A stretch of 64,000 nucleotides of DNA from Pseudoalteromonas viridis (GTDB taxonomy: Bacteria > Pseudomonadota > Gammaproteobacteria > Enterobacterales > Alteromonadaceae). The stretch spans positions 2,418,001 to 2,482,000 of the forward strand of contig NZ_CP072425.1 of assembly GCF_017742995.1 (NCBI RefSeq). Direction: 5' to 3'. Shown here one piece after another: positions 1 through 63,326 of the stretch; within the stretch, counting starts at the first letter, position 1; every line of letters begins with the position of its first letter. The position numbers were made by a program, and so were the translations under genes. A model generated the notes under the pieces. It was not told the origin of the DNA. It searched no databases and worked only from the letters and a program-made list of their open reading frames with translations.

Positions 1-35
1 ATCGCGAATTACGTAACTAACCAAAGGAAATTAAA

Positions 36-194
36 ATGTTACTTAAACTAAGCAAAAAGACGGTTAAAAACCTTAACACCACTTCTGCTAAACTTAACCT
101 ACAGCAAACCCCACAGGTTGCTGGTGGTACTAACCTGGACACGCTTATGTGTCTGAAAACCATGCAGTGCCCGCAAACCTGGCAGTGCGCTTAA
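36..194 (+). CDS. Putative RiPP-type precursor peptide, double-glycine leader
   Basis: This 52-residue peptide begins at an ATG with a good ribosome site (AAAGGAAA, about 6 nt upstream). It has a basic leader (MLLKLSKKTVKNL), a TPQVAGG segment at residues 25-31, and a short C-terminal part with three cysteines (C39, C45, C51) containing CPQT. The gene at 58808-58969 (minus) has the same start, TPQVAGG at the same residues, and a different three-Cys tail with CPGT. A conserved leader with a GG cut site and a variable Cys core is the pattern of bacteriocin and RiPP precursors exported by C39-peptidase ABC transporters. The product and its modification are unknown. No maturation enzyme or transporter is visible here, though genes left of the window cannot be seen. 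A hairpin follows at 282-305. Confidence 0.72.
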   Translation: MLLKLSKKTVKNLNTTSAKLNLQQTPQVAGGTNLDTLMCLKTMQCPQTWQCA

Positions 195-281: not shown

Positions 282-307
282 GTAGGCCAGTTTACTGGCC
301 TGCTTTA
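282..307 (+). terminator. Probable rho-independent terminator after the peptide gene
   Basis: AGGCCAG at 284-290 and CTGGCCT at 295-301 form a 7-bp stem with a TTTA loop, extended by a G-U and a G-C pair. A T-containing stretch (TTTATT) follows. It lies about 90 nt past the peptide stop. Confidence 0.55.
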
Positions 308-8792: not shown

Positions 8793-11700
8793 GTGCCGCA
8801 ATTTCTCCCTCTTAAGAACTATCGTAAGGCGATCAGTGTTGCCTTGCTGGTACCTATGTTGCTGGCCGTGGTACTGTGCTTTCACCTTTATCAGGTTAAG
8901 CTTGAGCGCCAGTATCAGGTCTATCAGGCGCAGTTTTTTGTGCTTGCCGGACAAGTTGAGCAGGAAACACTGGCCGCACAAACCGTGATCACCAGTATTC
9001 GTAACAGCCTGGCAGAGCCTATCCGCTATGAGCTGGATGCCGACTGGCAGCAGAACATTCGCCAGCAGGCCGGTTATTTTTATCGTCAGTTGCCCGACAA
9101 TGGCGGCGAGGTGGTCGGGCTTGGCCGCTTTGTCCCAACCCCGGAGCTGGTTGCGCAGTGGCAGCAGATCATGGCGCTGGGCCCCAGTTTTAACACGGCA
9201 CTGGCACTGATCGACGAACTCGAAGCGGTTGTTTTTGTTCAGGACAATGGGTTTGCCTTTGTGAAGCGTCGTGATACCAGTCAGAGCAATCTACTGACGG
9301 CCATTGTCGAGTCGCGCTTCACACCGCAATTCAGTCAGGGGATCACCGCCACCAGCATGCCAACCCGGGTTTTTGGTAAGCGCTATTTTGCACTGGGTCA
9401 GCGTCTGGCCAGTGGCTCGCTGTCGCAAATTTTGCTGATTTACGATGTAGATAAATTGGCAGGTCGGTTGCAACATATGGCTTTTGGCGGCGGAGGGTTG
9501 GCGTTAAAGGGCACCCAGCCGGGCGTGGTACTGGCCACCAGCAAAGACTACCGGGAGATTGAAGAAGCTGAGGTACGCGCAGCAAAATTGCCCTGGGACG
9601 GTGGTGTGCAGTTTAGTTATCGTCCTGCGGCTCAGCCGTTCACCCTGAACTTTGCACAGGACGAAGCCAGTTTTTCTGCACCGGCTCGATACGAAGCGCT
9701 GCTGGAGCTGGGCTTTCTGATCCTGTTTATTGTGTTCACGTTCGCCGCCTACGTGTGGCTTAATGCGCAGGTGTTTATTCGGCCATTGAAGCATTTTGTC
9801 CAATATCTGACCTATCAGGAGAATACTCCCCAAGCGACCATGAACTATGCAATCCCTAAAGACTGGCAACCCTGGTTTTTAGAGATAAAGCGGGTCGTGA
9901 CACAAAAGCGCGATGCGCTGCAACAGCTGCAGGACAACAATGCAAAGCTGGATGAGCAGGTGCAGCAGCAGAAGAAAGCCCTGTCACGTAGTTTAGAAGC
10001 CAAAGAGCGCCAGGCGGCTTTACTGAAAACCGTACTCAACTCAGTGCCTGATCTGGTTTACTACAAGAATATCGATGGCTCTTTTATCGGCTGTAACGAG
10101 GCCTTTGAGCGCTTTATCGGGGTTTCTCAGGTTGACCTGGTGGCCCGTGAACATCAGGAAGTGACTGAGCGACATCTGGCTTTGCTGGATCTGGAACAGA
10201 CCATGAATCGTCAGGGACAGAGCCTGACCGATACTTTGGAGCTGGAGGGCAGTAGTTACCTGATCACGGTGTCGCCTTTGTTTAATGACTTGCGCAAGCG
10301 CATTGGTACTTTGGGGGTTGCGCGAGATATCAGCGAGCAGCAGCAGGCTTTGACTGCGTTGCGGGCATCGGAACAGAATTTTAAAGCCGCGATTGAGTAT
10401 GCGCCTAATGGGGTGATCTTATTGTCTGTCGATCGCCTGGTGCTTGAACTGAATCGGGCGGCGCGCAAGTTATTCACGCGCGTTGATATTGGCAGCAGCC
10501 TGTATAGCGTATTCGAGGATGCCGATGTGGAGGCGCTCAATGATGTGCTGGATCATTGCCTGCAGGAGCGCCAGGGCGCCAGTGAGTTGAGCCTGGCTCA
10601 GCAAGATCCCAAACGCTGGTTGCATCTGAGTGTCTCTCTGGTTTGGGATAAGCAAAAGAATCCTAAATATTTTGTGATCCACATTCAGAACGTCACCGCA
10701 CTGATCCGCGCCCGACTGGATGCCGAGCGGGCCAACCATGCCAAAAGTCGTTTTATTGCCAATATCAGCCACGAGATCCGCACACCCATCAATGCCATTT
10801 TAGGCATGGTGAGCATTCTAAAAAGCGAGCTGGAGGCCAGTCAAGAGCAGCAGAAACTGGAGCAAATAGAGCGCGCCGCCCAGCAATTATTGGCGATGCT
10901 CAATGATATTCTGAATTTTGCCCGGCTCGAAAGTGGTCAGGGTAAGCCCAACAACCAGCCGTTTTGTCTGGTCGACTTGGTAACCAGCCTGAGTGGCTTT
11001 ATTACCCCGCTGAGTAGTGCCAAACAACTGGCGTTTGAGATAGAAGTAGACCCGTTTATCTGGCCAAGGCTGATTGGTGATGAAGCGCGTATCAAGCTGG
11101 TGTTGATGAACCTGCTGGGCAATGCGGTGAAGTTTACTGAGCATGGCCGGGTTGGAGTAAGCCTGTCCTTACAGCCTGATTTACAAGCGTCCGGGCAGGC
11201 CATTAAATTTTGCGTCTGGGATACTGGCCCAGGGATCAGCGAGCGCGACCAGGCGCGCTTGTTCGATGCCTTTACACAGGGCAATGAAAGTAGCTCGCGA
11301 ACTCATGAAGGGATCGGACTTGGTCTGGCGATAGTGAAGCAGGTGATCCAGCTATTGGGAGGGGAAATTACGCTATGCAGCAAGCCCGAGGTTGGCAGCC
11401 GCTTTGAGTTTACCCTGCAACTGGAGCGCGCCGCATTGCCCGATTATGAACATCAAAAGTCCTTGTTTGTGATCTCAGACGAGCAGGCACCTTTGCCCTA
11501 CCTGACACATCAGGGGATCCGTCAGGGCAGTGTGGCTGATTTCAAAGCGCTCAGCGCAGCGGCTTCAGTTCACTACCTGGCCTGTGACAATCCTGCTCAT
11601 ATAGCGGCATTGAGTCAGCCAGAGTTCGGCCTGAATGCACGCTGGCTGGTGCCCGACACCGCCGCATGCACTGACGTTTTGCCAGCAAACACCGACGCTC

Positions 11701-12497
11701 TGAGGTTATTTGCGCCGGTGTTCTATCAAAGCCTGAGTACCTGTTCACTGGAAGCGCCCAGAGCGGCGCTGCCAGAACCCTGCTTGTTATCACCTTTGCT
11801 GTGTATTGTGGTCGACGACAACCCGGTGAATTTGGATATCAGTACCACAGTTTTGCAGCAGCGCGGTGCAACTGTGGTTGCGCTGGGCAATGCAGAGCAA
11901 ATAGTCGACATTTGCCAGAAGCTGCGCCCCGATGTGGTGCTGATGGATTTATACATGCCCAATATTGATGGTTATGAAGCCAGCCGCCAGCTGCGTCGCC
12001 ACTTTGACCGCGACACTTTGCCCATTATCGCCTTGACTGCCAATGCCCATGAACAGGAAAAACAACAGGCCATGGCGACCGGCCTAAATGGCTTCCTGGT
12101 CAAGCCTGTGACCCCTGCGGACTTGTGTGCGGCGCTACAGGAATATGTGCCGGACAGCGAGATTGTCTTTGATCACCCCTTTGCACTGGCCCAAATGATG
12201 GGGAAAGAAGCGCTGGTACGCACTATGCTGGAAAAGTTTGCTAAGCTTTGTGAAGAGTACGTGACCACTTTGCACAACACACACAGTGCGCCTGAACTCG
12301 TTAGTCTGGCACATACCATTAAAGGCTCGGCAGCCGGACTGGGGCTGTGTCGTTTAGCCGCTCAGGCGCGGGAGTGCGAAACTGCTGCAAAGCAAGCGCA
12401 GCAAGCGGCATTTGAGCAGGTGTCTGATGAACAAGCGCGGTTGCTGGCAGCCGCAGAACAAACTTTGTGTTTTATTTCGTTTTGGTTAAAAGGATAA
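8793..12497 (+). CDS. Hybrid sensor histidine kinase (PAS-HisKA-HATPase-REC-Hpt)
   Basis: This membrane phosphorelay kinase has 1234 residues and a GTG start. A first transmembrane helix (about 14-31) is followed by a periplasmic sensor of about 270 residues and a second helix (about 303-325). A coiled coil (about 365-410) precedes two PAS-like regions (about 412-520 and 525-645). HisKA follows with the phospho-His at H660 (ISHEIRTP), then HATPase_c with [16 protein letters not shown] and [10 protein letters not shown] receiver domain has phospho-Asp D1052 (VLMDLYMPN), and a terminal Hpt has H1174 ([11 protein letters not shown]). All phosphorelay residues are present, so signals likely pass H660 to D1052 to H1174 and on to a separate regulator. 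The obvious candidate is the gene that starts 4 nt after its stop. Confidence 0.93.
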
Positions 12498-12501
12498 GAA
12501 A

Positions 12502-13404
12502 ATGCACAAATCGGCCCATATTCTGGTCTTAGATCCGGACCCTCTCAATCGGGTAGTGCTGCAAAATACCCTGGAAGAAACTTACCTGGTGACGCTGAGC
12601 GCAACACCAGAGCAGGCCCTGACTCAGCTTAGGGGCGCAGGTGTTGATTTGATCATCATGGATAATCAACAACTGGGCGATGCTGCTGAGGTTTTTTTGC
12701 AGGCGTTAAAAGCCAATGCAGAGACTGCTCAACTGCCTGTGATAGTGATCTCTGCAAGTGCCAGTTTTTTAGATGAAGCGCAGAGCCTTCAGCAGGGCGC
12801 TGTCGACTATATTACTAAGCCGTTTAACCCCAATATCGTAAAAGCGCGGGTAAAAATTCATCTGGCCATCAAGCAGCGTAACGATCAGCTCAGCCAGCAG
12901 GCACTGATCGATGGCATGACATCACTGCCCAATCGTCGGGCACTGGATCAAACCCTGGCAGCCTTCTGGCGACAGTGTGCGTCGGGTGTTCGGCCGCTGG
13001 CGGTATTTGTGCTGGGGGTAGATCACTTTGAGCGATACAACCAGCTGTTTGGCCATATCCGGGGCGATGAATGCCTGTATAAGATTGCGCAGGTTGTTGC
13101 CGGGCTTATCAGTAATATGGATGGGTTTACGGCCCGTTATGATGGTGGACGCTTTGTTGCATTGCTGCGTGATATCAGTGAAACAGAAGCGCAAGAGGTC
13201 GCAGAGGCCATGCACAAAGCGGTGGCAGCGCTGGCTATTCGCCATCCTCAATCGCCAATTTGTGCGCATGTGACTGTGAGTGTCGGGATTTGCTACACCA
13301 AAGCAGACTTCTCAAGAGCACACCGGGATCCGCTTGATTTGGCCGCAGCCGCACTGAACGAAGCGCGCGAACGGCAACAAAAAGCGGTGCTCAGCGTGGT
13401 GTGA
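12502..13404 (+). CDS. Response regulator with degenerate GGDEF domain
   Basis: This 300-residue protein is co-transcribed with the hybrid kinase (4-nt gap). An N-terminal receiver (1-125) has phospho-acceptor D54 (IIMDN) and the KPF motif. A C-terminal GGDEF-fold domain (about 135-300) begins DGMTSLPNRRAL. The signature reads DGGRF at 214-218, where an active enzyme has GG(D/E)EF, and the usual first metal Asp before DHF is Gly (VLGVDHF). I infer loss of diguanylate cyclase activity, leaving a regulatory or GTP/c-di-GMP-sensing role. Overall fold assignment is confident; inactivity is inference. Confidence 0.88.
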   Translation: MHKSAHILVLDPDPLNRVVLQNTLEETYLVTLSATPEQALTQLRGAGVDLIIMDNQQLGDAAEVFLQALKANAETAQLPVIVISASASFLDEAQSLQQGAVDYITKPFNPNIVKARVKIHLAIKQRNDQLSQQALIDGMTSLPNRRALDQTLAAFWRQCASGVRPLAVFVLGVDHFERYNQLFGHIRGDECLYKIAQVVAGLISNMDGFTARYDGGRFVALLRDISETEAQEVAEAMHKAVAALAIRHPQSPICAHVTVSVGICYTKADFSRAHRDPLDLAAAALNEARERQQKAVLSVV

Positions 13405-13435
13405 GCGGTTCAGAGCGCATGTACTCTAGAACCGC
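13405..13435 (+). terminator. Hairpin after the signalling operon
   Basis: GCGGTTC (13405-13411) pairs with GAACCGC (13429-13435) with a nested GAG/CTC. It sits between convergent genes, with no strong T-run. Confidence 0.4.
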
Positions 13436-13448
13436 CAGGCGATTTAGG

Positions 13449-13811
13449 TTACAGCAAGTGTGCCAGTGCTGTATCGCCAAATCCAACGAGTTTGCTGTCT
13501 TTAAACAGTAAAGGTGTACACTCATCTTTAGTAACAACACCGTCTGAGTGTTTGCTATTGGTGGCAAAGTAAAGTACCTGATAAACGGTATCTCCCTTCG
13601 ACACCATGTCTGTGTATTCAGGTGTGCCCAGCTTGTTCAGCACGCTCTGGTATTCAGTGCCGATTTTTAGTTGGCTGATCTTTTCGCGGTTTTCTCTTTG
13701 TTCTTTCTTCCAGCTGTGGTGACCGTTATATTCGCCATCTGTGACCGCAACGACACAGCCTGTCAGTGCGGTTGAACTTAAAAGCGCAGTTGCGAGTAGT
13801 AGTTTTTTCAT
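13449..13811 (-). CDS. DUF3192-type lipoprotein
   Basis: This 120-residue lipoprotein has a signal peptide ending in the lipobox LTGC (Cys19). The mature part contains ISQLKIGTEYQSVLNKLGTPEYTD and a final LVGFGDTAL. That pattern fits the DUF3192 family of small gammaproteobacterial lipoproteins, which resemble the SmpA/BamE fold. Its function is not established. It is convergent with the preceding signalling operon. Confidence 0.75.
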   Translation of the reverse strand: MKKLLLATALLSSTALTGCVVAVTDGEYNGHHSWKKEQRENREKISQLKIGTEYQSVLNKLGTPEYTDMVSKGDTVYQVLYFATNSKHSDGVVTKDECTPLLFKDSKLVGFGDTALAHLL

Positions 13812-13979
13812 TTTTATATCCCAGGCTTAGCCGTCTTTATTTTCTTTGAATTATAGTTAGCAAAGAGTTTGCCATATTTTAAATTATTATAAATCAATAT
13901 CTTACACTTTGCGACAAAGTGGTAACTAATATATGGCACTAAATTTTGAATAAATTAACCATTAGTTAGTTAAAAGCAC

Positions 13980-14247
13980 GAAGTGGTCACCGCATCTTAT
14001 TACGCTCGCGATGCGGGAACTATTAACAGGCGACGTGTTGCCTAAAAAATATACCTGCGCTGGATTCAAATAGTTCCCGGCTCGAAGGCCGGGATGACGG
14101 AGTGTGGGCATGCGGATTAGTAGAGATAATAGGTAGGGCTATAAGTGGGCCTTGCGACTCAATGCTGCCTATAAGCTACAACTCTCCCATCCGACTCAGG
14201 AGTGACGCCAATCGCATCTATTCTCACATACGCCGTACGTCACCGGG
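13980..14247. repeat. Solitary copy of the dispersed repeat seen at 23201-24125
   Basis: This stretch carries, in order, GATGCGGGAACTATTAACAG, the palindrome TTCCCGGCTCGAAGGCCGGG, GACTCAATGCTG and GACTCAGGAGTGACGCCAAT. The same blocks in the same order make up the long repeat units downstream of visC. No gene is evident. The region 13812-13979 upstream is AT-rich and holds the presumed promoter of the lipoprotein. Confidence 0.75.
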
Positions 14248-15195
14248 CTACACCAGGCGATTGTGCTCGCGCCCCTTTAAAAAGCTATCAATATTCTCGG
14301 CAATACCCTGGATCAGGCGGGTGATCGACTCCTGACTGGCCCAGGCCGTGTGCGGGGTCAGTAACAAGTTGTTGCCCTGATACTGCTCCAACGGGTTATC
14401 CGCAGCAGCCGGCTCCACGCTGAGGACATCCACACCGGCGCCGAGCAGCTGTTGGTTGGCCAGTGCATCTGCCAGTGCCTGTTCATTGACAATGCCGCCG
14501 CGCGCCGTATTCAGTAAGATGGCATGTGCCGGAAGCAGTGCCAGTGTGTCGGCATCAAACAAGTCGCGGGTGGTGTCGGTCAGCGGACAGTGAACAGAGA
14601 CGATATCGGCACTGCGCAGCGCCTCGGTAAATTCAACGCGTTCGGCACGTACAGTCTCTTGCCCCGGGCGCTCTGCAATCACGACTTCGGCGCCAAAGGC
14701 GCTGGCGACCTTAGCGACCGCCTGGCCAAGGTTACCATAACCGACTATGACAAAGCGTTTGCCCGACAGGTCGTGAATTGGGTAGTCCAGACGACAAAAC
14801 AGGTTGCTGCGTTGCCAGGCACCATTGGCACAATCCTGCGTATAGCGGTGAATATTACTCATCAGGTTGCCAAGCAGTGTAAATGTATGCAAAACCACAG
14901 ATGGCGTAGAATAGCCAGCCACATTGGTCACCGCGATATTGTGGGCACGTGCAGCCTCCAGGTCGATATTATTGGTGCCGGTTGCGGCCACGCAGATCAA
15001 TCTGAGGCTCGGCAGTTGGCTCAGCGCATCGGCATTGAGCACCACCTTGTTGGTCACAACCACTTCAGCGCTCCGTATACGTGGCATCAGCTGCTCAGCT
15101 GAGGTGGTATGGTACTCGGTGACTGTACCAAATTTTCTGAGCGGATCCAGGCTAACACCCGCCAGCGTGGCGGCATCTAAAACAACAATATTCAT
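14248..15195 (-). CDS. D-2-hydroxyacid dehydrogenase (glycerate dehydrogenase-like)
   Basis: This is an NAD(P)-dependent oxidoreductase of the D-isomer 2-hydroxyacid dehydrogenase family, 315 residues. The start MNIVVLDAATLAG at 15195 is preceded by AAGGAATG. The nucleotide-binding GYGNLG motif lies mid-protein. The active-site Arg is in NTARGG and the catalytic His in LTPHTAWAS, with the family's acidic residue (VDVLSVEP) between them. It resembles HprA-type hydroxypyruvate/glycerate dehydrogenases, but the substrate cannot be fixed by eye. It is divergent from the MerR-type regulator gene. Confidence 0.88.
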   Translation of the reverse strand: MNIVVLDAATLAGVSLDPLRKFGTVTEYHTTSAEQLMPRIRSAEVVVTNKVVLNADALSQLPSLRLICVAATGTNNIDLEAARAHNIAVTNVAGYSTPSVVLHTFTLLGNLMSNIHRYTQDCANGAWQRSNLFCRLDYPIHDLSGKRFVIVGYGNLGQAVAKVASAFGAEVVIAERPGQETVRAERVEFTEALRSADIVSVHCPLTDTTRDLFDADTLALLPAHAILLNTARGGIVNEQALADALANQQLLGAGVDVLSVEPAAADNPLEQYQGNNLLLTPHTAWASQESITRLIQGIAENIDSFLKGREHNRLV

Positions 15196-15267
15196 GGTGA
15201 GCAAACATTCCTTACTAACAGATGGCGCCGAGTGTATCATTTTTATTGGCAAAGTTTATCTTTGTGC

Positions 15268-15299
15268 TTGACCTTGAACTCAACTCTAAGGTTTATACT
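15268..15299 (+). promoter_or_regulatory. MerR-type promoter/operator of the metal-efflux operon
   Basis: A -35 (TTGACC, 15268-15273) and a -10 (TATACT, 15294-15299) are separated by 20 bp, the lengthened spacer typical of MerR-family targets. An imperfect dyad, ACCTT (15271-15275) and AAGGT (15288-15292), fills the spacer. It lies about 35 nt before the regulator gene it would autoregulate. Confidence 0.75.
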
Positions 15300-15333
15300 G
15301 TGATCAGATTCATAAAGGACGGCAAAACTGACT

Positions 15334-15747
15334 ATGTATAAGATTGGCTATATTGCAAAACAATTGAATGTGTCTACCGACACACTGCGTTATTATGAGC
15401 GTCAGGGCCTGTTGCAGGCCTGTGTTCGCAGCCCGGCAGGTTACCGGTTATATGACGATAGCGCGCTTGAGCAGATGCGTTTTATTGTGCGGGCAAAGGC
15501 GGTGGGCTTCAGTCTTAAAGATATTCAGGAACTGCTGACCATTAAAATTGATAAACACAATCACAGCTGTGAAGAAGTGAAATCACTGACGTTACAGAAG
15601 CTGGCACAAACCCGGCAAAGAATTGAAGAGTTACTGAAATTCGAGCGCTCTTTGAGCGTGCTGGCCGAGCGGTGTTGTGGCGGCGAAGAAAGTGCTGATG
15701 ATTGTTCTATCTTAACCGCGTTGGAGGATGTAGATGGCTCTGCTTGA
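15334..15747 (+). CDS. MerR-family metal-responsive regulator, ZntR-like
   Basis: This 137-residue protein has an N-terminal MerR winged helix (YKIGYIAKQLNVSTDTLRYY) and a dimerisation helix. Metal-site cysteines fall at C79 (HSCEE) and C114, C115 and C124 (CCGGEESADDC). These match the C79/C114/C115/C124 positions of E. coli ZntR, while ZntR's H119 is Glu here. It likely senses Zn(II) or related divalent ions, and possibly Cu given its partner. Its end overlaps the exporter gene by 14 nt, so the two are co-transcribed. Confidence 0.88.
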   Translation: MYKIGYIAKQLNVSTDTLRYYERQGLLQACVRSPAGYRLYDDSALEQMRFIVRAKAVGFSLKDIQELLTIKIDKHNHSCEEVKSLTLQKLAQTRQRIEELLKFERSLSVLAERCCGGEESADDCSILTALEDVDGSA

Positions 15748-16954
15748 TAATTTTTGGCAACTCTTTTTGGTTTCAGCGCCCTGGCTGATGCTCGGCCTGT
15801 TACTTGCTGGTTTGCTTAACGTATTTATTCCTAAAGACTTCTTACAAAAGCATCTGGGAAAAGAAGGGCTCTGGACGACTATCAAAGCGGCTCTGATAGG
15901 AGCGCCTATGCCGCTATGTTCCTGTGGCGTAATCCCGGCTGCCATCGGGTTGCGTCGTGCCGGCGGGTCCAAAAGTGCCACGACTGCCTTTTTGGTATCC
16001 ACACCCGAAACAGGGGTCGACTCCATCTCGGTTTCTTACGCGCTGCTTGGGCCTTTTATGGCCGTGATCCGGCCCATCGCCGCAGTAGCCAGTGCGATCA
16101 CCGCCGGTGTGCTGGTTGGTAAAGACGAGGGCAACGCACAACCAGCTGCGTCAGACGTATCAGACAGTGGGTGCTGTGGCAGCTCAGCCAAAAAAGCAGA
16201 GGCAGAAAAAAGCAGTTGCTGTGCCACTGAGCCTAAACCAGCGTCAGTGCAATCCAGCAGTTGTTGCGCAAGCCAACCACAGGCAGATCCTGCGCCGCAA
16301 AGCAGCTGTTGCGATAGTCAGCCTGTGCAAAAGCCCGAGGAGCAGGCCACGTCTTGCTGTGCCTCAGCGCAAGCCAAGCCTGGGTTGTGGCAAAAGCTAG
16401 TGTCTGCTGTGCAATTTAGCTGTAACAAATTATTAGCCGATACTATGCAATGGCTACTGATTGGTCTATTCTTTGCCGCCTTAGTACAAACCTATGTTCC
16501 CGAAGCCTTTTTGGCTCAGTGGGGCAATGGCATTCTGGCCATGATAGTGGTTATTTTGGTCAGTATTCCGATGTACATTTGTGCCACAGCGTCAACGCCC
16601 ATTGCGGCCGGTTTATTGCTGGCGGGTGTGTCTCCCGGTGCGGTGCTGGTCTTTATGCTGGCAGGTCCCGCCACCAACGTTGCTACCATTGGCGTGGTGG
16701 CCAAAGAGCTGGGTCGTCGCGCGGTGTTTGCTTATCTTGGCGCGGTGATTGGTGTGGCAATTATTTTTGGATTTTTGACCGACTGGCTGGTGGCGCAGTT
16801 TGGCTTTACGGTGGCGCCTATGATGGGGCACGACCATGAAGTGCTGCCATACTGGCTGACATTGAGCAGTGGTGTTGTACTGGCTCTGCTGATGGCAAGG
16901 TTGATGCTGCTGGGTATTAAACAACGCTTTATGCCCGCTCAGGCATCGGCATAA
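15734..16954 (+). CDS. SO_0444-family Cu/Zn efflux permease
   Basis: This 406-residue inner-membrane permease has two DUF318/ArsP-type halves. The first contains APMPLCSCGVIPAAIGL and the second IPMYICATASTPIAAGLL. Between them is a hydrophilic, Cys-rich loop (about 138-215) with five CC pairs in SSCCA-like repeats. It matches the SO_0444 Cu/Zn exporter type of Shewanella in architecture and in its link to a MerR regulator. The CC loop probably collects metal. It is translationally overlapped with the ZntR-like gene. Confidence 0.9.
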   Translation: MALLDNFWQLFLVSAPWLMLGLLLAGLLNVFIPKDFLQKHLGKEGLWTTIKAALIGAPMPLCSCGVIPAAIGLRRAGGSKSATTAFLVSTPETGVDSISVSYALLGPFMAVIRPIAAVASAITAGVLVGKDEGNAQPAASDVSDSGCCGSSAKKAEAEKSSCCATEPKPASVQSSSCCASQPQADPAPQSSCCDSQPVQKPEEQATSCCASAQAKPGLWQKLVSAVQFSCNKLLADTMQWLLIGLFFAALVQTYVPEAFLAQWGNGILAMIVVILVSIPMYICATASTPIAAGLLLAGVSPGAVLVFMLAGPATNVATIGVVAKELGRRAVFAYLGAVIGVAIIFGFLTDWLVAQFGFTVAPMMGHDHEVLPYWLTLSSGVVLALLMARLMLLGIKQRFMPAQASA

Positions 16955-16961
16955 CCTCAGG

Positions 16962-16991
16962 TGCCTGCATTACACCGCAAGTGATGCAGGT
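16962..16991 (+). terminator. Hairpin after the efflux operon
   Basis: CCTGCAT and ATGCAGG form a 7-bp stem around a 13-nt loop, just past the permease stop. There is no long T-run. Confidence 0.35.
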
Positions 16992-17087
16992 ACTTCTGGT
17001 CAGACTTGATATTCTTAGCTTCCGATCAGGGGGCACGATAGAATAAGACGTTTTGATGACAACCACCCAATAATAAAGAGTAGTTTA

Positions 17088-18185
17088 GTGGATAAATACG
17101 CAGATATCAGACCTTACAATGACGATGAAGTCCCCGCAGCTTTGCAGCGTTTGCTGGACGATGATCAGTTTATTGATGTGATTGCGGAGCATAACCTGCC
17201 CAAATGGCTGGCAGGGTGGAACCTGATATCCCGGTCACTGGTGCGTAGCCGATTGAAGAAAAAATGGCGGTCAGTCACTAATGTTGAAGCGGTTCAGAAT
17301 GAAGTAGCCGGTTATCTGTCTATGCTGATTGAGCGTACCACCGCCAAGGTAACCTATTCCGGCCTGGATAAGCTCGACAAGCAGGGGGCGTATCTGTTTA
17401 TCTCTAACCACAGAGACATAGTGCTGGATCCGGCACTGGTCAACTGGGGTCTGCATCAGCAAAAAATGCAAACTGTGCGCATTGCCATTGGCGATAACCT
17501 GCTTCAGGTGCCTTATATCACAGAGCTGATGCGCTTAAATAAGAGCTTTATTGTGAAGCGTTCGGCCAAAGCACCAAAAGAAATGCTGCGTGCCTTGTCT
17601 CAGCTGTCTGCGTATATTTATGACTCGCTGGATGAGGGCAACTCAATCTGGATTGCGCAAAAAGAAGGTCGTGCTAAAGATGGCGTCGACTTTACCGATC
17701 CGGCATTGCTGAAAATGTTGCAGTTGAATGGGCGTAAGCTAAAACTGCCGTTTGCCGAATATGTGCGCCAGCTCAAGATTGTCCCTGTGTCGATTTCTTA
17801 TCAGTATGAACCGTGTGCCGTGTCAAAAGCCCGCGAGCTGTATCATAAACAGCAGTTCGGTGAATATGTGAAAGCCGAAGGCGAAGACATCAGCAGCATC
17901 ATCGAAGGGTTTAGCAGCGATAAGGGTCATGTACATGTGGCGTTTGGCTCACCCATAGACGAAGAATTCGAAACGCCGGAGCAGCTGGCCGAAATCATCG
18001 ATCAGCAGATTGTCAGCAACTACTATCTGCATTCGAGCAACTACCTGGCCGCCGGCGATGAAAGCAAGAGCAGCGAGCTGGAGAAGAACCGTTTTATGGA
18101 AGCGCTGGAGCAAGTACCGGAAGAGTTACGTCAGCTGGTGCTATCTATCTACGCACAGCCTGCCAAACGCAAGTTGTCGCAGTAG
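17088..18185 (+). CDS. 1-acyl-sn-glycerol-3-phosphate acyltransferase-like protein (PlsC family)
   Basis: This 365-residue protein has a GTG start. A PlsC-type domain lies at about 95-260 with the active-site region SNHRDIVLD (H108) and the substrate-binding KEGRAKDG block. The N-terminus is soluble, unlike short PlsC enzymes, which marks a distinct subgroup of phospholipid-type acyltransferases. The exact acceptor is unknown. The gene stands alone and is followed by a MITE-like element and a terminator. Confidence 0.8.
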   Translation: MDKYADIRPYNDDEVPAALQRLLDDDQFIDVIAEHNLPKWLAGWNLISRSLVRSRLKKKWRSVTNVEAVQNEVAGYLSMLIERTTAKVTYSGLDKLDKQGAYLFISNHRDIVLDPALVNWGLHQQKMQTVRIAIGDNLLQVPYITELMRLNKSFIVKRSAKAPKEMLRALSQLSAYIYDSLDEGNSIWIAQKEGRAKDGVDFTDPALLKMLQLNGRKLKLPFAEYVRQLKIVPVSISYQYEPCAVSKARELYHKQQFGEYVKAEGEDISSIIEGFSSDKGHVHVAFGSPIDEEFETPEQLAEIIDQQIVSNYYLHSSNYLAAGDESKSSELEKNRFMEALEQVPEELRQLVLSIYAQPAKRKLSQ

Positions 18186-58807: not shown

Positions 58808-58969
58808 TTAGCACGCCCGCGATGTTAGTGTGCCCGGACAGCGAGCATCTGACCAACAGTAGTAAGTTTTTTCTACACCACCGGCTACTTGGGGTGTCAT
58901 GTTTGCAGGTACGCCTGCTTTGTCGTTAGATAGGGCTTTCAATGGTTTCTTTTTCAGTTTTAGTAACAT
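58808..58969 (-). CDS. Putative RiPP-type precursor peptide, second member
   Basis: This 53-residue peptide has a strong ribosome site (AAAGGAG, 8 nt before the ATG). It begins MLLKLKKKPLKALS and has TPQVAGG at 25-31, matching the peptide at 36-194 without a gap. The tail has three cysteines (C38, C44, C53) and CPGT. The core otherwise differs. This is a conserved-leader, variable-core pair in the same genome. No modifying enzyme is in the window. The annotated function is unknown; a peptide secreted after double-glycine cleavage is my inference. Confidence 0.74.
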   Translation of the reverse strand: MLLKLKKKPLKALSNDKAGVPANMTPQVAGGVEKTYYCWSDARCPGTLTSRAC

Positions 58970-61466: not shown

Positions 61467-61999
61467 GAATTTTGCTTCTCTTTGTTTAGATGTGGTTATT
61501 TTAGTGAATGCGATGCATGGGGGCAATGTTTGTCTGGCATACAAGCCACTTTGTGAAGAATGCCCTGCTTAAATTTACAATTGTTAATGTCCTTTGCTTC
61601 TCTCAAGAACTGCAGTTAAGTTTCTATAGAGATCTTAGATGAATTTTAACTTTATAATTGTTAGGGCATTTTTGACCTGTTTAGCACCGAAGAAAAAGGT
61701 ATTATAGCCCTAAGCTTGATAAAGCTATGACATGGAGTTGTAAACATGTGATGCGGTTTTTGCATCAGCGCACTTTTCCTTCAATCCCTGCGCCAGCACA
61801 CTTATAACAGCGGATGTTACAGGGAGTGAGTGAACAACCTACCTGGTTCACTGACGGATCCGTTTAATTTAATGACCAGAAACATGAACAGTGACCGCTG
61901 TTGCTTGTGATTGCTTATCACATCAAGTGCACAATGCGAAGTCCTGCATACAGGGTGCTGTTTTGTCTGTCGAATGACTTCAAAAGTATAAGGAAAACG
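61467..61999. other. Intergenic region between ettA and the phage-like module
   Basis: These 533 nt include the divergent promoters and a GTGAAC...GTTCAC inverted repeat at 61832-61853, a possible operator. No gene or att-like duplication is visible. Confidence 0.45.
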
Positions 62000-62275
62000 A
62001 TGAAGCAATTTATACATGCAAAGCCGCGACTCACAGCGCAGCGAAAAACACCATTAGGTGCCGACATTCTGAGGTTTGCTCGCCATATCAGAGGCTATAC
62101 ACAGGCAGAATCGGCCGCGCACTATGGTGTTGAAGAGCGTACATTGAGACGTTGGGAAAACAAAGAGTACAGCCCCAGGTGGAACGACGTAGTCGGTCTG
62201 GTGGAGGATGTTTACTCGCTCGATATTCTAGAAGTAATAGGAAAGATCAATGATGATGACACAACCAACCATTAA
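62000..62275 (+). CDS. HTH regulator of the phage-like module
   Basis: This 91-residue protein has a helix-turn-helix of the Cro/CI-like type (AESAAHYGVEERTLRRWENK). The ATG at 62000 follows AAGGAAAACG, and the longer frame from 61901 is not needed. It overlaps the next gene by 26 nt, starting a compact plus-strand operon that leads to lysis and baseplate genes. It could be an activator of late genes. Confidence 0.75.
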   Translation: MKQFIHAKPRLTAQRKTPLGADILRFARHIRGYTQAESAAHYGVEERTLRRWENKEYSPRWNDVVGLVEDVYSLDILEVIGKINDDDTTNH

Positions 62276-62612
62276 GCAACTGCGCACCGCCTTGAAGCGC
62301 TGGGGTCGATTCTGGCGTGCCAAAGAGCTGGGTAAAGGGTTTAGCCGACAGGCTGTAACTGAGCGGATAGGGGATTCTGGTGCAGGCTACATCAGCAGCG
62401 ACATGATGACGGTGCCTGAAGAAATTGAAACTCTGACTCAGTGCATAGCCAGGCTGCGACCTGAGTGTATTCGGGCGCTGCGAGGCAAATACCTGGTTGA
62501 GGGGGATATTGCCCTGGTTGCCAAAACACTGGGGTTTGACTCCAAGCGGTCGATGGAGTTTTGGCTGGTAAAAGCAGAAAGAAGCTTGCTCCAGAGTTTA
62601 TGCCATCCATAA
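62250..62612 (+). CDS. Phage late-regulator-like protein (Q-like), tentative
   Basis: This 120-residue basic protein overlaps the preceding gene. The C-terminal half (LRPECIRALRGKYLVEGDIA, then VAKTLGFDSKRSMEFWLVKAE) looks like a sigma-region-4-type helix-turn-helix, as in phage antiterminator or late activator proteins. There is no direct evidence for function. The position before the endolysin fits a late regulator. Confidence 0.55.
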   Translation: MMMTQPTIKQLRTALKRWGRFWRAKELGKGFSRQAVTERIGDSGAGYISSDMMTVPEEIETLTQCIARLRPECIRALRGKYLVEGDIALVAKTLGFDSKRSMEFWLVKAERSLLQSLCHP

Positions 62613-62621
62613 GGAGCGAAT

Positions 62622-63041
62622 ATGACCATTATGAACACGGTTGAACAGTTAAAGAAGCATGAAGGGTTTCGCCGTTTCCCTTACTACTGCACAGCGGGCA
62701 AGCTGACCATAGGGTATGGCAGAAACCTGGAACAGAACGGCATTGCAGAGGAAGAAGCGGAACAGTTGCTGGCACAGGATGTGGCTAACGCACAGGCCGG
62801 TGTGCGGCGCCGCATAGACATTGTGCACTGTAATGAGGCCAGGCAGGCGGTACTGACCAATATGGCGTTTAATTTGGGGATGCAGGGATTGCTGGGCTTC
62901 AAAAAGATGCTTGAGGCAGTGCAAAGTGGCGATTTTGAGCGTGCTGCACTGGAAATGCTGGACAGCCGCTGGGCTCGCCAGGTGCCTGAGCGGGCGCAGG
63001 AGCTGGCTCAGCAAATGCTCAGTGGCCAGTGGCAGTCTTAA
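62622..63041 (+). CDS. Phage endolysin, T4-type lysozyme with E-C-T triad
   Basis: This 139-residue glycoside hydrolase 24 protein cleaves peptidoglycan. The catalytic pattern E14-8aa-C23-5aa-T29 (HEGFRRFPYYCTAGKLTIGYG) has Cys where T4 lysozyme has Asp20. A Cys there occurs naturally in related phage endolysins and is active in engineered T4 lysozyme. No signal-anchor is present, so a holin is needed. The ATG at 62622 follows AAGGAG. Confidence 0.9.
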   Translation: MTIMNTVEQLKKHEGFRRFPYYCTAGKLTIGYGRNLEQNGIAEEEAEQLLAQDVANAQAGVRRRIDIVHCNEARQAVLTNMAFNLGMQGLLGFKKMLEAVQSGDFERAALEMLDSRWARQVPERAQELAQQMLSGQWQS

Positions 63042-63080
63042 ATTGCTGGGGGTAACTATGAATGAGGAGGTGGCCAAACC

Positions 63081-63326
63081 ATGCAAGCCGATCAATGGCA
63101 AATGAAAAAGGAGCTGAATCTGGCTCATATCCTGACCACCATTGCATTAGTGGTGTCGGGCATTTTATATCTGAACGATCTGGATAAACGGATCACCACA
63201 AACTCACAGGAGCTGGCACATCTAAAGCAGATCCGCAAAGAGGACCAGAAGCGCATCGAAAAGCGTCTGGATTCTATCGACAAAAAGCTCGACGCCCTGT
63301 TGAGTGCAAAACGCAATAACGGCTAG
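63081..63326 (+). CDS. Small membrane/coiled-coil phage protein
   Basis: This 81-residue protein has a hydrophobic segment (about 14-31) and a long charged coiled coil (about 33-76, DLDKRITTNSQELAHLKQIR onward). It follows the endolysin and has AGGAGG upstream. It could be the holin or a spanin-like protein of the lysis cassette; the topology of one helix plus a coiled coil fits several such proteins. Confidence 0.65.
   Translation: MQADQWQMKKELNLAHILTTIALVVSGILYLNDLDKRITTNSQELAHLKQIRKEDQKRIEKRLDSIDKKLDALLSAKRNNG

Follow-up and report, generated by a model that had tools for sequence, protein, structure and literature searches.

A dispersed family of predicted class I lanthipeptide precursors and one distant LanB/LanC/C39 operon in Pseudoalteromonas

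Leader-sharing peptide genes in the window and across the genome

The window, that is, the whole 64-kb stretch of DNA analyzed here (positions 2418001 to 2482000 of contig C1, in a genome of 5.55 Mb and two contigs), carries two small genes with a common leader. Their parts and the signals around the first of them are as follows.

25..28, plus strand: AGGA, Shine-Dalgarno-like, ahead of precursor ORF 36-194 (read from the sequence)
36..194, plus strand: precursor ORF of 52 codons (52 aa), predicted to be LanA-like and class I; one of 31 leader-sharing copies
36..128, plus strand: leader, residues 1 to 31, with an LxLxKx5L-type region and the TPQVAGG cleavage end (alignment of copies)
129..191, plus strand: core TNLDTLMCLKTMQCPQTWQCA, with predicted rings T-L-M-C, T-M-Q-C, and T-W-Q-C (Ser/Thr-Cys spacing in orthologues)
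282..303, plus strand: terminator-like hairpin of 9 pairs and a T-rich tail (by consensus match)
58808..58969, minus strand: second precursor, 53 aa, with the leader layout of ORF 36-194
58877..58969, minus strand: its leader, MLLKLKKKPLKAL plus TPQVAGG at the same residue numbers as in ORF 36-194
58811..58876, minus strand: its core, VEKTYYCWSDARCPGTLTSRAC (sequence read)

The initial annotation had described the first gene as 52 residues long, with a leader (MLLKLSKKTVKNL), TPQVAGG at residues 25 to 31, cysteines at residues 39, 45, and 51, and a CPQT motif, and reading of the ORF confirmed each of these elements. The same holds for its second gene, found on the minus strand at 58808 to 58969, which shares the leader and has TPQVAGG at the same residue numbers. 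In the core of ORF 36-194, a Thr stands at position −3 of every Cys (TLMC, TMQC, and TWQC), and the computed [M+H]+ of the unmodified core is 2429.08. The two window peptides match each other at an E value of 2.3e-5 (search within the genome); by this value, the spacing of AGGA, and the low dN/dS values given below, their likeness is more than chance.

Terminator-like hairpins around ORF 36-194 numbered 3, versus 1.9 (standard deviation, 1.3) in shuffles, and a sigma-70 scan of the surroundings found none, with 2.2 expected from shuffles. The 64-kb window showed no lan gene, in keeping with the earlier remark that no linked maturation enzyme was in view; the maturation genes are found 1.2 Mb from it. 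A link of ORF 36-194 to a TonB receptor (438 to 2819) was dropped because the best downstream aligned piece was just 114 nt in the relative G051 and 65 nt in the relative G007. For the two window peptides, the Pfam matches to LdpA_C (E 0.014) and Tail_spike_N (E 0.16) were rejected as below the curated cutoffs, and the plasmids searched gave no match to the ORF 36-194 peptide. Near the window end (61901 to 63326) there are small genes that, by eye, resemble a prophage remnant (helix-turn-helix, phage-type lysozyme).

The further copies guessed at in the initial annotation do exist. A whole-genome search with a profile of 30 copies recovered 31 leader-sharing copies at E ≤ 1.3e-7 (the next match had an E value of 1.01), occupying 27 places on both contigs; when each window peptide was used as the query instead, the counts at E ≤ 10 were 26 and 27, with chance matches among them. 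An ATG-started frame is present in 30 of the 31, and the remaining one (C1:2547545-2547679) has decayed and lost its start codon, with intact relatives in G007 and G051. It was excluded from alignment A1, which holds the other 30 and in which the row for C2:173272 starts two codons late. The precursor at C1:1237160 has no Cys. Leaders are alike across the copies (in this alignment K11, L13, and T25 are invariant and K7 and G30 nearly so), and the cores vary widely, from 14 to 47 residues in the 30 copies. The LxLxKx5L motif is found in its relaxed form in 26 of the 31 copies and in its strict form in 14, and AGGA begins 10 to 13 nt ahead of the start codon in 29. The 150 nt ahead of the copies were also searched for a common promoter motif, and the ribosome-binding AAGGAAAT alone stood out. 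A mobile-cassette origin was considered and rejected, since comparing all 31 copies with one another over their 600-nt flanks revealed no common flanking repeat; shared flank pieces came solely from three neighboring copy pairs (overlapping flanks plus one 33-bp match within one pair).

Few of the 30 copies scanned matched any NCBIfam leader model at E ≤ 1. The best match was to TIGR04149, named as a radical-SAM-modified family (1 of the 30 copies; E 1.1e-4), with the class I leader model NF038158 behind it (3 of the 30; best E 0.0011); ORF 36-194 scores 13 bits with the NCBIfam class I leader model, for which the cutoff is 22. The Nif11 model appeared neither among the NCBIfam matches of 30 of the 31 copies nor among the Pfam matches of the two window peptides. 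Most of the named proteins among 99 profile homologues are called hypothetical or uncharacterized, and one (P0073, from Thalassomonas viridans) is named a class I lanthipeptide by one source.

A LanB/LanC/C39 operon and its distribution among relatives

The genome has a single C39 peptidase match, at C1:1215895. A C39 ABC transporter, HlyD, LanC, and LanB form one operon, 1.2 Mb from the window precursors (coordinates on locus L054).

16369-17613, minus strand: HlyD (domain search)
14194-16338, minus strand: C39 ABC transporter (domain search)
12796-14016, minus strand: LanC, 406 aa (PF05147, E 1.6e-37, 129.4 bits)
9639-12788, minus strand: LanB, 1049 aa, full-length (PF04738, E 2e-135, 452.9 bits; PF14028, E 8.3e-63, 213.4 bits)

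This is the one full-length LanB match in the genome, with both its glutamylation and its elimination domains. The motif RPTPFG of LanB and the Q-x5-C of C39, with its H and D, are all there, and the LanC motifs WCYG (at 267) and CHG (at 317) align with the equivalent motifs in two LanC-like chains of solved structure. We take the WCYG/CHG residues to be the Cys-Cys-His zinc ligands, and the named residues of all three proteins are presumably the functional ones. LanB matches the solved structures of NisB (4wd9) and of a “Lantibiotic dehydratase” (5ehk) and is 98% identical to the LanB of Pseudoalteromonas rubra S2471, which suggests a host of the P. rubra group. Of the maturation loci that the initial annotation had proposed to look for in the genome, LanB and ABC-C39 turned out to stand in one operon together with LanC and HlyD, and there is no LanM, the sole LANC_like match being a 413-residue frame within the LanB operon. 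The 31 copies and the single C39 match also bear out the earlier idea of many variable-core, double-glycine precursors of RiPP type in a C39-bearing genome. The term “undescribed family” could not be upheld, given this LanB/LANC_like/C39 operon and the class I lanthipeptides of the genus described in PMC9993889 and PMC12819058.

Copy C1:1219353, 1.7 kb beyond HlyD, is the sole one near the operon. Another lies 19.5 kb away, and the other 29 are at least 155 kb off or on the second contig; 30 of the 31 copies are at least 19 kb from the operon, and none stands between the transporter gene and lanC. A precursor gene adjoining lanB or lanC is a mark of class I systems, and the window precursors adjoin neither. 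This is no strict bar to class I, since prochlorosins show unlinked precursors. In the same region of the contig, C1:1224490-1232045 (L055:4490-12045) holds genes for an S8 subtilase, a PPDK-like protein, a 312-aa unassigned protein, and an M16-like protein (under Pfam cutoffs), as well as, by eye, ABC permeases and an ATPase, adjoining a 277-aa protein of VDVDAQGKIIIITAEREEALKSLAG repeats. This set may be a second peptide system.

Across 108 genomes of the genus, the leader family occurs in 51 and LanB in the identical 51, own genome included, in counts that take genomes singly and ignore shared ancestry. Homologues in related genomes, whose absence was to have spoken against the initial annotation, are found in these same 51. 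LANC_like tracks the 51 genomes as well, except for G001, which has LanB and two leader copies and no LANC_like match, and G017, where the match is weak. ORF 36-194 itself is matched in 22 of the 108 genomes and the second precursor (58808 to 58969) in 15, own genome included in both (E ≤ 1e-10). Precursors per strain range from 1 to at least 59, with six genomes at 59 or more and 42 of the 51 leader-bearing genus genomes having ten or more. In the 395 genomes of the taxonomic family, the leader was found at E ≤ 1e-5 in 33, all 33 of which have LanB; 10 of the 43 family genomes with a LanB match show no leader among the matches listed, and G361 and G404 have LanB at E values below 1e-100 with no leader among the matches listed.

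In 12 of 37 named LanB loci, a profile of the peptides of our genome found leader ORFs no more than 1 kb ahead of lanC (L165, L171, L175, L178, L179, L180, L184, L186, L187, L188, L189, and L192); two of the 37, L167 and L185, do not reach far enough to reveal what precedes lanC. This indicates that the cluster precursor of other species shares its leader with the dispersed copies. In the P. rubra loci L157, L174, and L176, the stretch covered has no leader ORF near lanC.

These distributions bear on the possibility that the peptides are unmodified, disulfide-bonded double-glycine bacteriocins similar to class II microcins, exported by C39 and untouched by LanB and LanC. A double-glycine leader, Cys-rich cores, and one C39 transporter with HlyD are indeed what such bacteriocins would have. 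We regard this reading as very unlikely, as the leader tracks a core-modifying enzyme, LanB, through an identical set of genomes and the same leader recurs near lanC in a third of the named loci.

The same leader also precedes Cys-free, mostly Ser/Thr-rich cores at L159, L160, L163, L164, L166, L173, L179, and L186, some of which consist of tandem NTDTVTQ units or contain SSDTSVT. Such precursors could give linear dehydrated peptides. Relatives also have LanC domains in open frames of 890 to 931 residues (G007:C2:466813, G052:C2:175119, G094:C22:184694, and others), about the size of class II LanM.

Ser/Thr-Cys spacing and conservation of the cores

We collected 181 sequences (30 own copies, 99 profile homologues, and 52 from named LanB loci), of which four are without the leader-end pattern; the 177 cores were reduced to 127 nonredundant ones, 115 of them with Cys. 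In these 115 cores, Ser/Thr was found at −3 of Cys 142 times versus 67.5 in shuffles (z, 10.3) and at −5 121 times versus 63.0 (z, 8.4), z-scores that are generous because related sequences remain in the set. Ser/Thr 3 to 7 residues before Cys amounted to 470 and after Cys to 268, and seven other residue classes showed no enrichment before Cys in the same cores (z at most 0.74). The peptides thus pair a leader with a core in which Ser/Thr precedes Cys, a mark of class I precursors. Ser/Thr was also enriched at +2 of Cys (105 versus 69.9) and depleted at +1 and −2 in the 115 cores. Within the 30 copies of our genome, the excess at −3 was modest (26 versus 16.5; z, 2.7) and that at +2 stronger (33 versus 17.0; z, 4.6).

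A sharper view comes from the orthologues of ORF 36-194, 20 of which could be aligned (the other two of the 22 have no locus) and were 59 to 100% identical. All 20 have Ser/Thr at −3 of all three Cys, with Ser replacing Thr in 5 at the first Cys and in 10 at the third, and a fourth Cys, present in nine orthologues, has Ser/Thr at −3 in every case. Orthologues of the second peptide were aligned and left uncounted (12 of the 15 ORFs were recovered, one in the wrong frame). Retention of Ser/Thr at −3 through Thr-Ser swaps is what (methyl)lanthionine rings require and disulfides would not, which again argues against microcin-like peptides. The number of cysteines can be read both ways: three is the commonest count (34 of 127 cores), as might suit Cys-rich bacteriocins, and an odd number in 59 of the 127 does not favor disulfides.

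Another reading retains the dispersed precursors and changes their chemistry: the LanB-like protein would be thiopeptide-like or perform dehydration only, or another enzyme (e.g., a radical-SAM one) would act, and no lanthionine bridges would form. In its favor are the name that NCBIfam gives to the C-terminal region of LanB (“thiopeptide-type bacteriocin biosynthesis protein”), the 12 of 127 cores that are Cys-free, including Ser/Thr-rich ones behind the same leader in relatives, the one copy that matches a radical-SAM-target leader family, and the title of the pseudorosin paper, which mentions a dethiolation activity of the dehydratase. Against it stand a LanC with WCYG and CHG in the operon and the maintained Ser/Thr-Cys spacing, and we attach a low probability to it.

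Copy sets were compared with those of G051 and G007, which have 43 and 41 copies and gave 23 and 19 flank-matched pairs with our genome, respectively. Judged by flanks, our genome lacks a counterpart for 21 of the 43 copies in G051 and for 24 of the 41 in G007; conversely, 7 and 11 of our own 31 copies are without one in G051 and G007. These counts overstate copy turnover, since some cores recur in other surroundings, which the rough pairing misses, and some neighboring copies were mispaired. The dN/dS values were 0.06 for the leader and 0.16 for the core with G051 (17 of the 23 pairs) and 0.06 and 0.09 with G007 (9 of the 19), in pairs whose members have the same length and are no less than 60% alike, a selection that biases dN/dS downwards. 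The core of ORF 36-194 is identical at 21 of 21 residues in both relatives. Cores that differ among copies are thus kept among orthologues, which suggests a definite product for each such copy. This is relevant to the idea that a few precursors are the real substrates and that most of the dispersed copies arose by duplication of an ancestral cluster precursor and are now decaying, an idea that overlaps with the class I explanation and does not exclude it. The copy without a start codon, the one without Cys, and the different (if overstated) copy sets of relatives would fit such decay. We find it hard to reconcile with the low dN/dS of both leader and core, selected pairs as they are, with AGGA ahead of the start in nearly all copies, and with the identical ORF 36-194 core in two relatives, and consider it improbable.

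A proposed shared maturation route and its known counterparts

In the class I route, LanB glutamylates Ser/Thr with Glu-tRNA and then carries out the elimination, and LanC adds Cys. Taking together the directly computed genes, family, co-occurrence, enzyme motifs, Ser/Thr-Cys pattern, and low dN/dS, we consider it highly probable that the product of ORF 36-194 is processed to a secreted class I lanthipeptide and that this precursor is one of about 30 dispersed ones sharing one distant LanB/LanC/C39 set. Speaking against this are the window without lan genes, the leader score under the class I cutoff and the better match to TIGR04149, the modest −3 and stronger +2 excess within our own copies, the copies that lack Cys or a start codon, G001 with LanB and no LANC_like match, and the family genomes that have LanB and no leader among the matches listed. 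We infer the action of this set on the dispersed peptides, the ring topology, and the export as follows. The single LanB would read the leader of ORF 36-194 and, with Glu-tRNA, dehydrate core Thr/Ser by glutamylation and then elimination; the single LanC would join each Cys to the dehydrated residue at its −3 position, so that three small rings (TLMC, TMQC, and TWQC) form. During export through HlyD and a channel in the outer membrane (presumably TolC), the C39 domain of the transporter would cut after AGG. This one enzyme set, 1.2 Mb from the window, would serve about 30 precursors, which are spread over 27 places and each have a different core. Their role is most likely that of a strain-specific repertoire of antagonistic or signaling peptides. 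The wider proposal, that one LanB/LanC/C39 set handles many unlinked precursors per strain, Cys-free cores included, in Pseudoalteromonas and other genera, is one toward which we lean with less assurance.

One-enzyme, many-precursor lanthipeptide making has been described for the bifunctional LanM (PMC12328550). If the same is true of LanB/LanC, the class I version would use a tRNA-dependent dehydratase and a separate cyclase, and Pseudoalteromonas, with its published genome-editing system (PMC12819058), would be a genus in which to ask why dozens of different lanthipeptides are retained. Mining of cyclase neighborhoods would miss nearly all precursors of this genome, given their distances from the operon; the survey of Walker (2020) covered seven genes either side of a LanC-domain gene (PMC7268733).

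Several known systems resemble the present one in part. Pseudorosins A to C, from Pseudoalteromonas flavipulchra S16 (cited in PMC12819058), share with our system the genus, the class I type of lanthipeptide, and a LanB-type dehydratase (PsfB). At locus L179, from another P. flavipulchra strain, LanB is 62% identical to ours and a leader-family ORF adjoins lanC, and these may well be the psf genes; in the present genome, the interval from the transporter gene to lanC holds no copy. PciA of Pseudoalteromonas citrea DSM 8771, likened here by description and not by sequence, is also class I and of the same genus; its precursor was modified in Escherichia coli without an extra tRNA plasmid, and it is shown as a gene cluster (PMC9993889), whereas the window precursors are unlinked. 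Bacteroidetes class I precursors have an LxLxKx5L leader, many with a GG end and a C39 protease (Walker 2020, PMC7268733), and are thus similar to ours in leader motif, GG end, and C39 processing. The present precursor differs from them in being gammaproteobacterial, under the NCBIfam class I leader cutoff, and unlinked.

The closest counterpart in gene arrangement is found in marine cyanobacteria, in the prochlorosins (ProcM/ProcA) and SyncM/SyncA (PMC12328550, PMC7268733, PMC9872173, and PMC10783134). As proposed here, one enzyme there serves many precursors, many of them at a distance from its gene, with a kept leader and variable cores, in a marine organism. Our genome has numerous unlinked precursors whose leader is shared and whose cores vary, and has neither a single LanM nor a Nif11 leader: the cyanobacterial systems have a bifunctional class II LanM and Nif11-type leaders, whereas here LanB and LanC are separate and the leader is of the LxLxKx5L type. 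Our literature search, which did not extend to the pseudorosin paper itself, returned no description of a large unlinked class I repertoire. We read the system as the likely class I equivalent of the prochlorosins, in a genus for which lanthipeptides of this class are already known.
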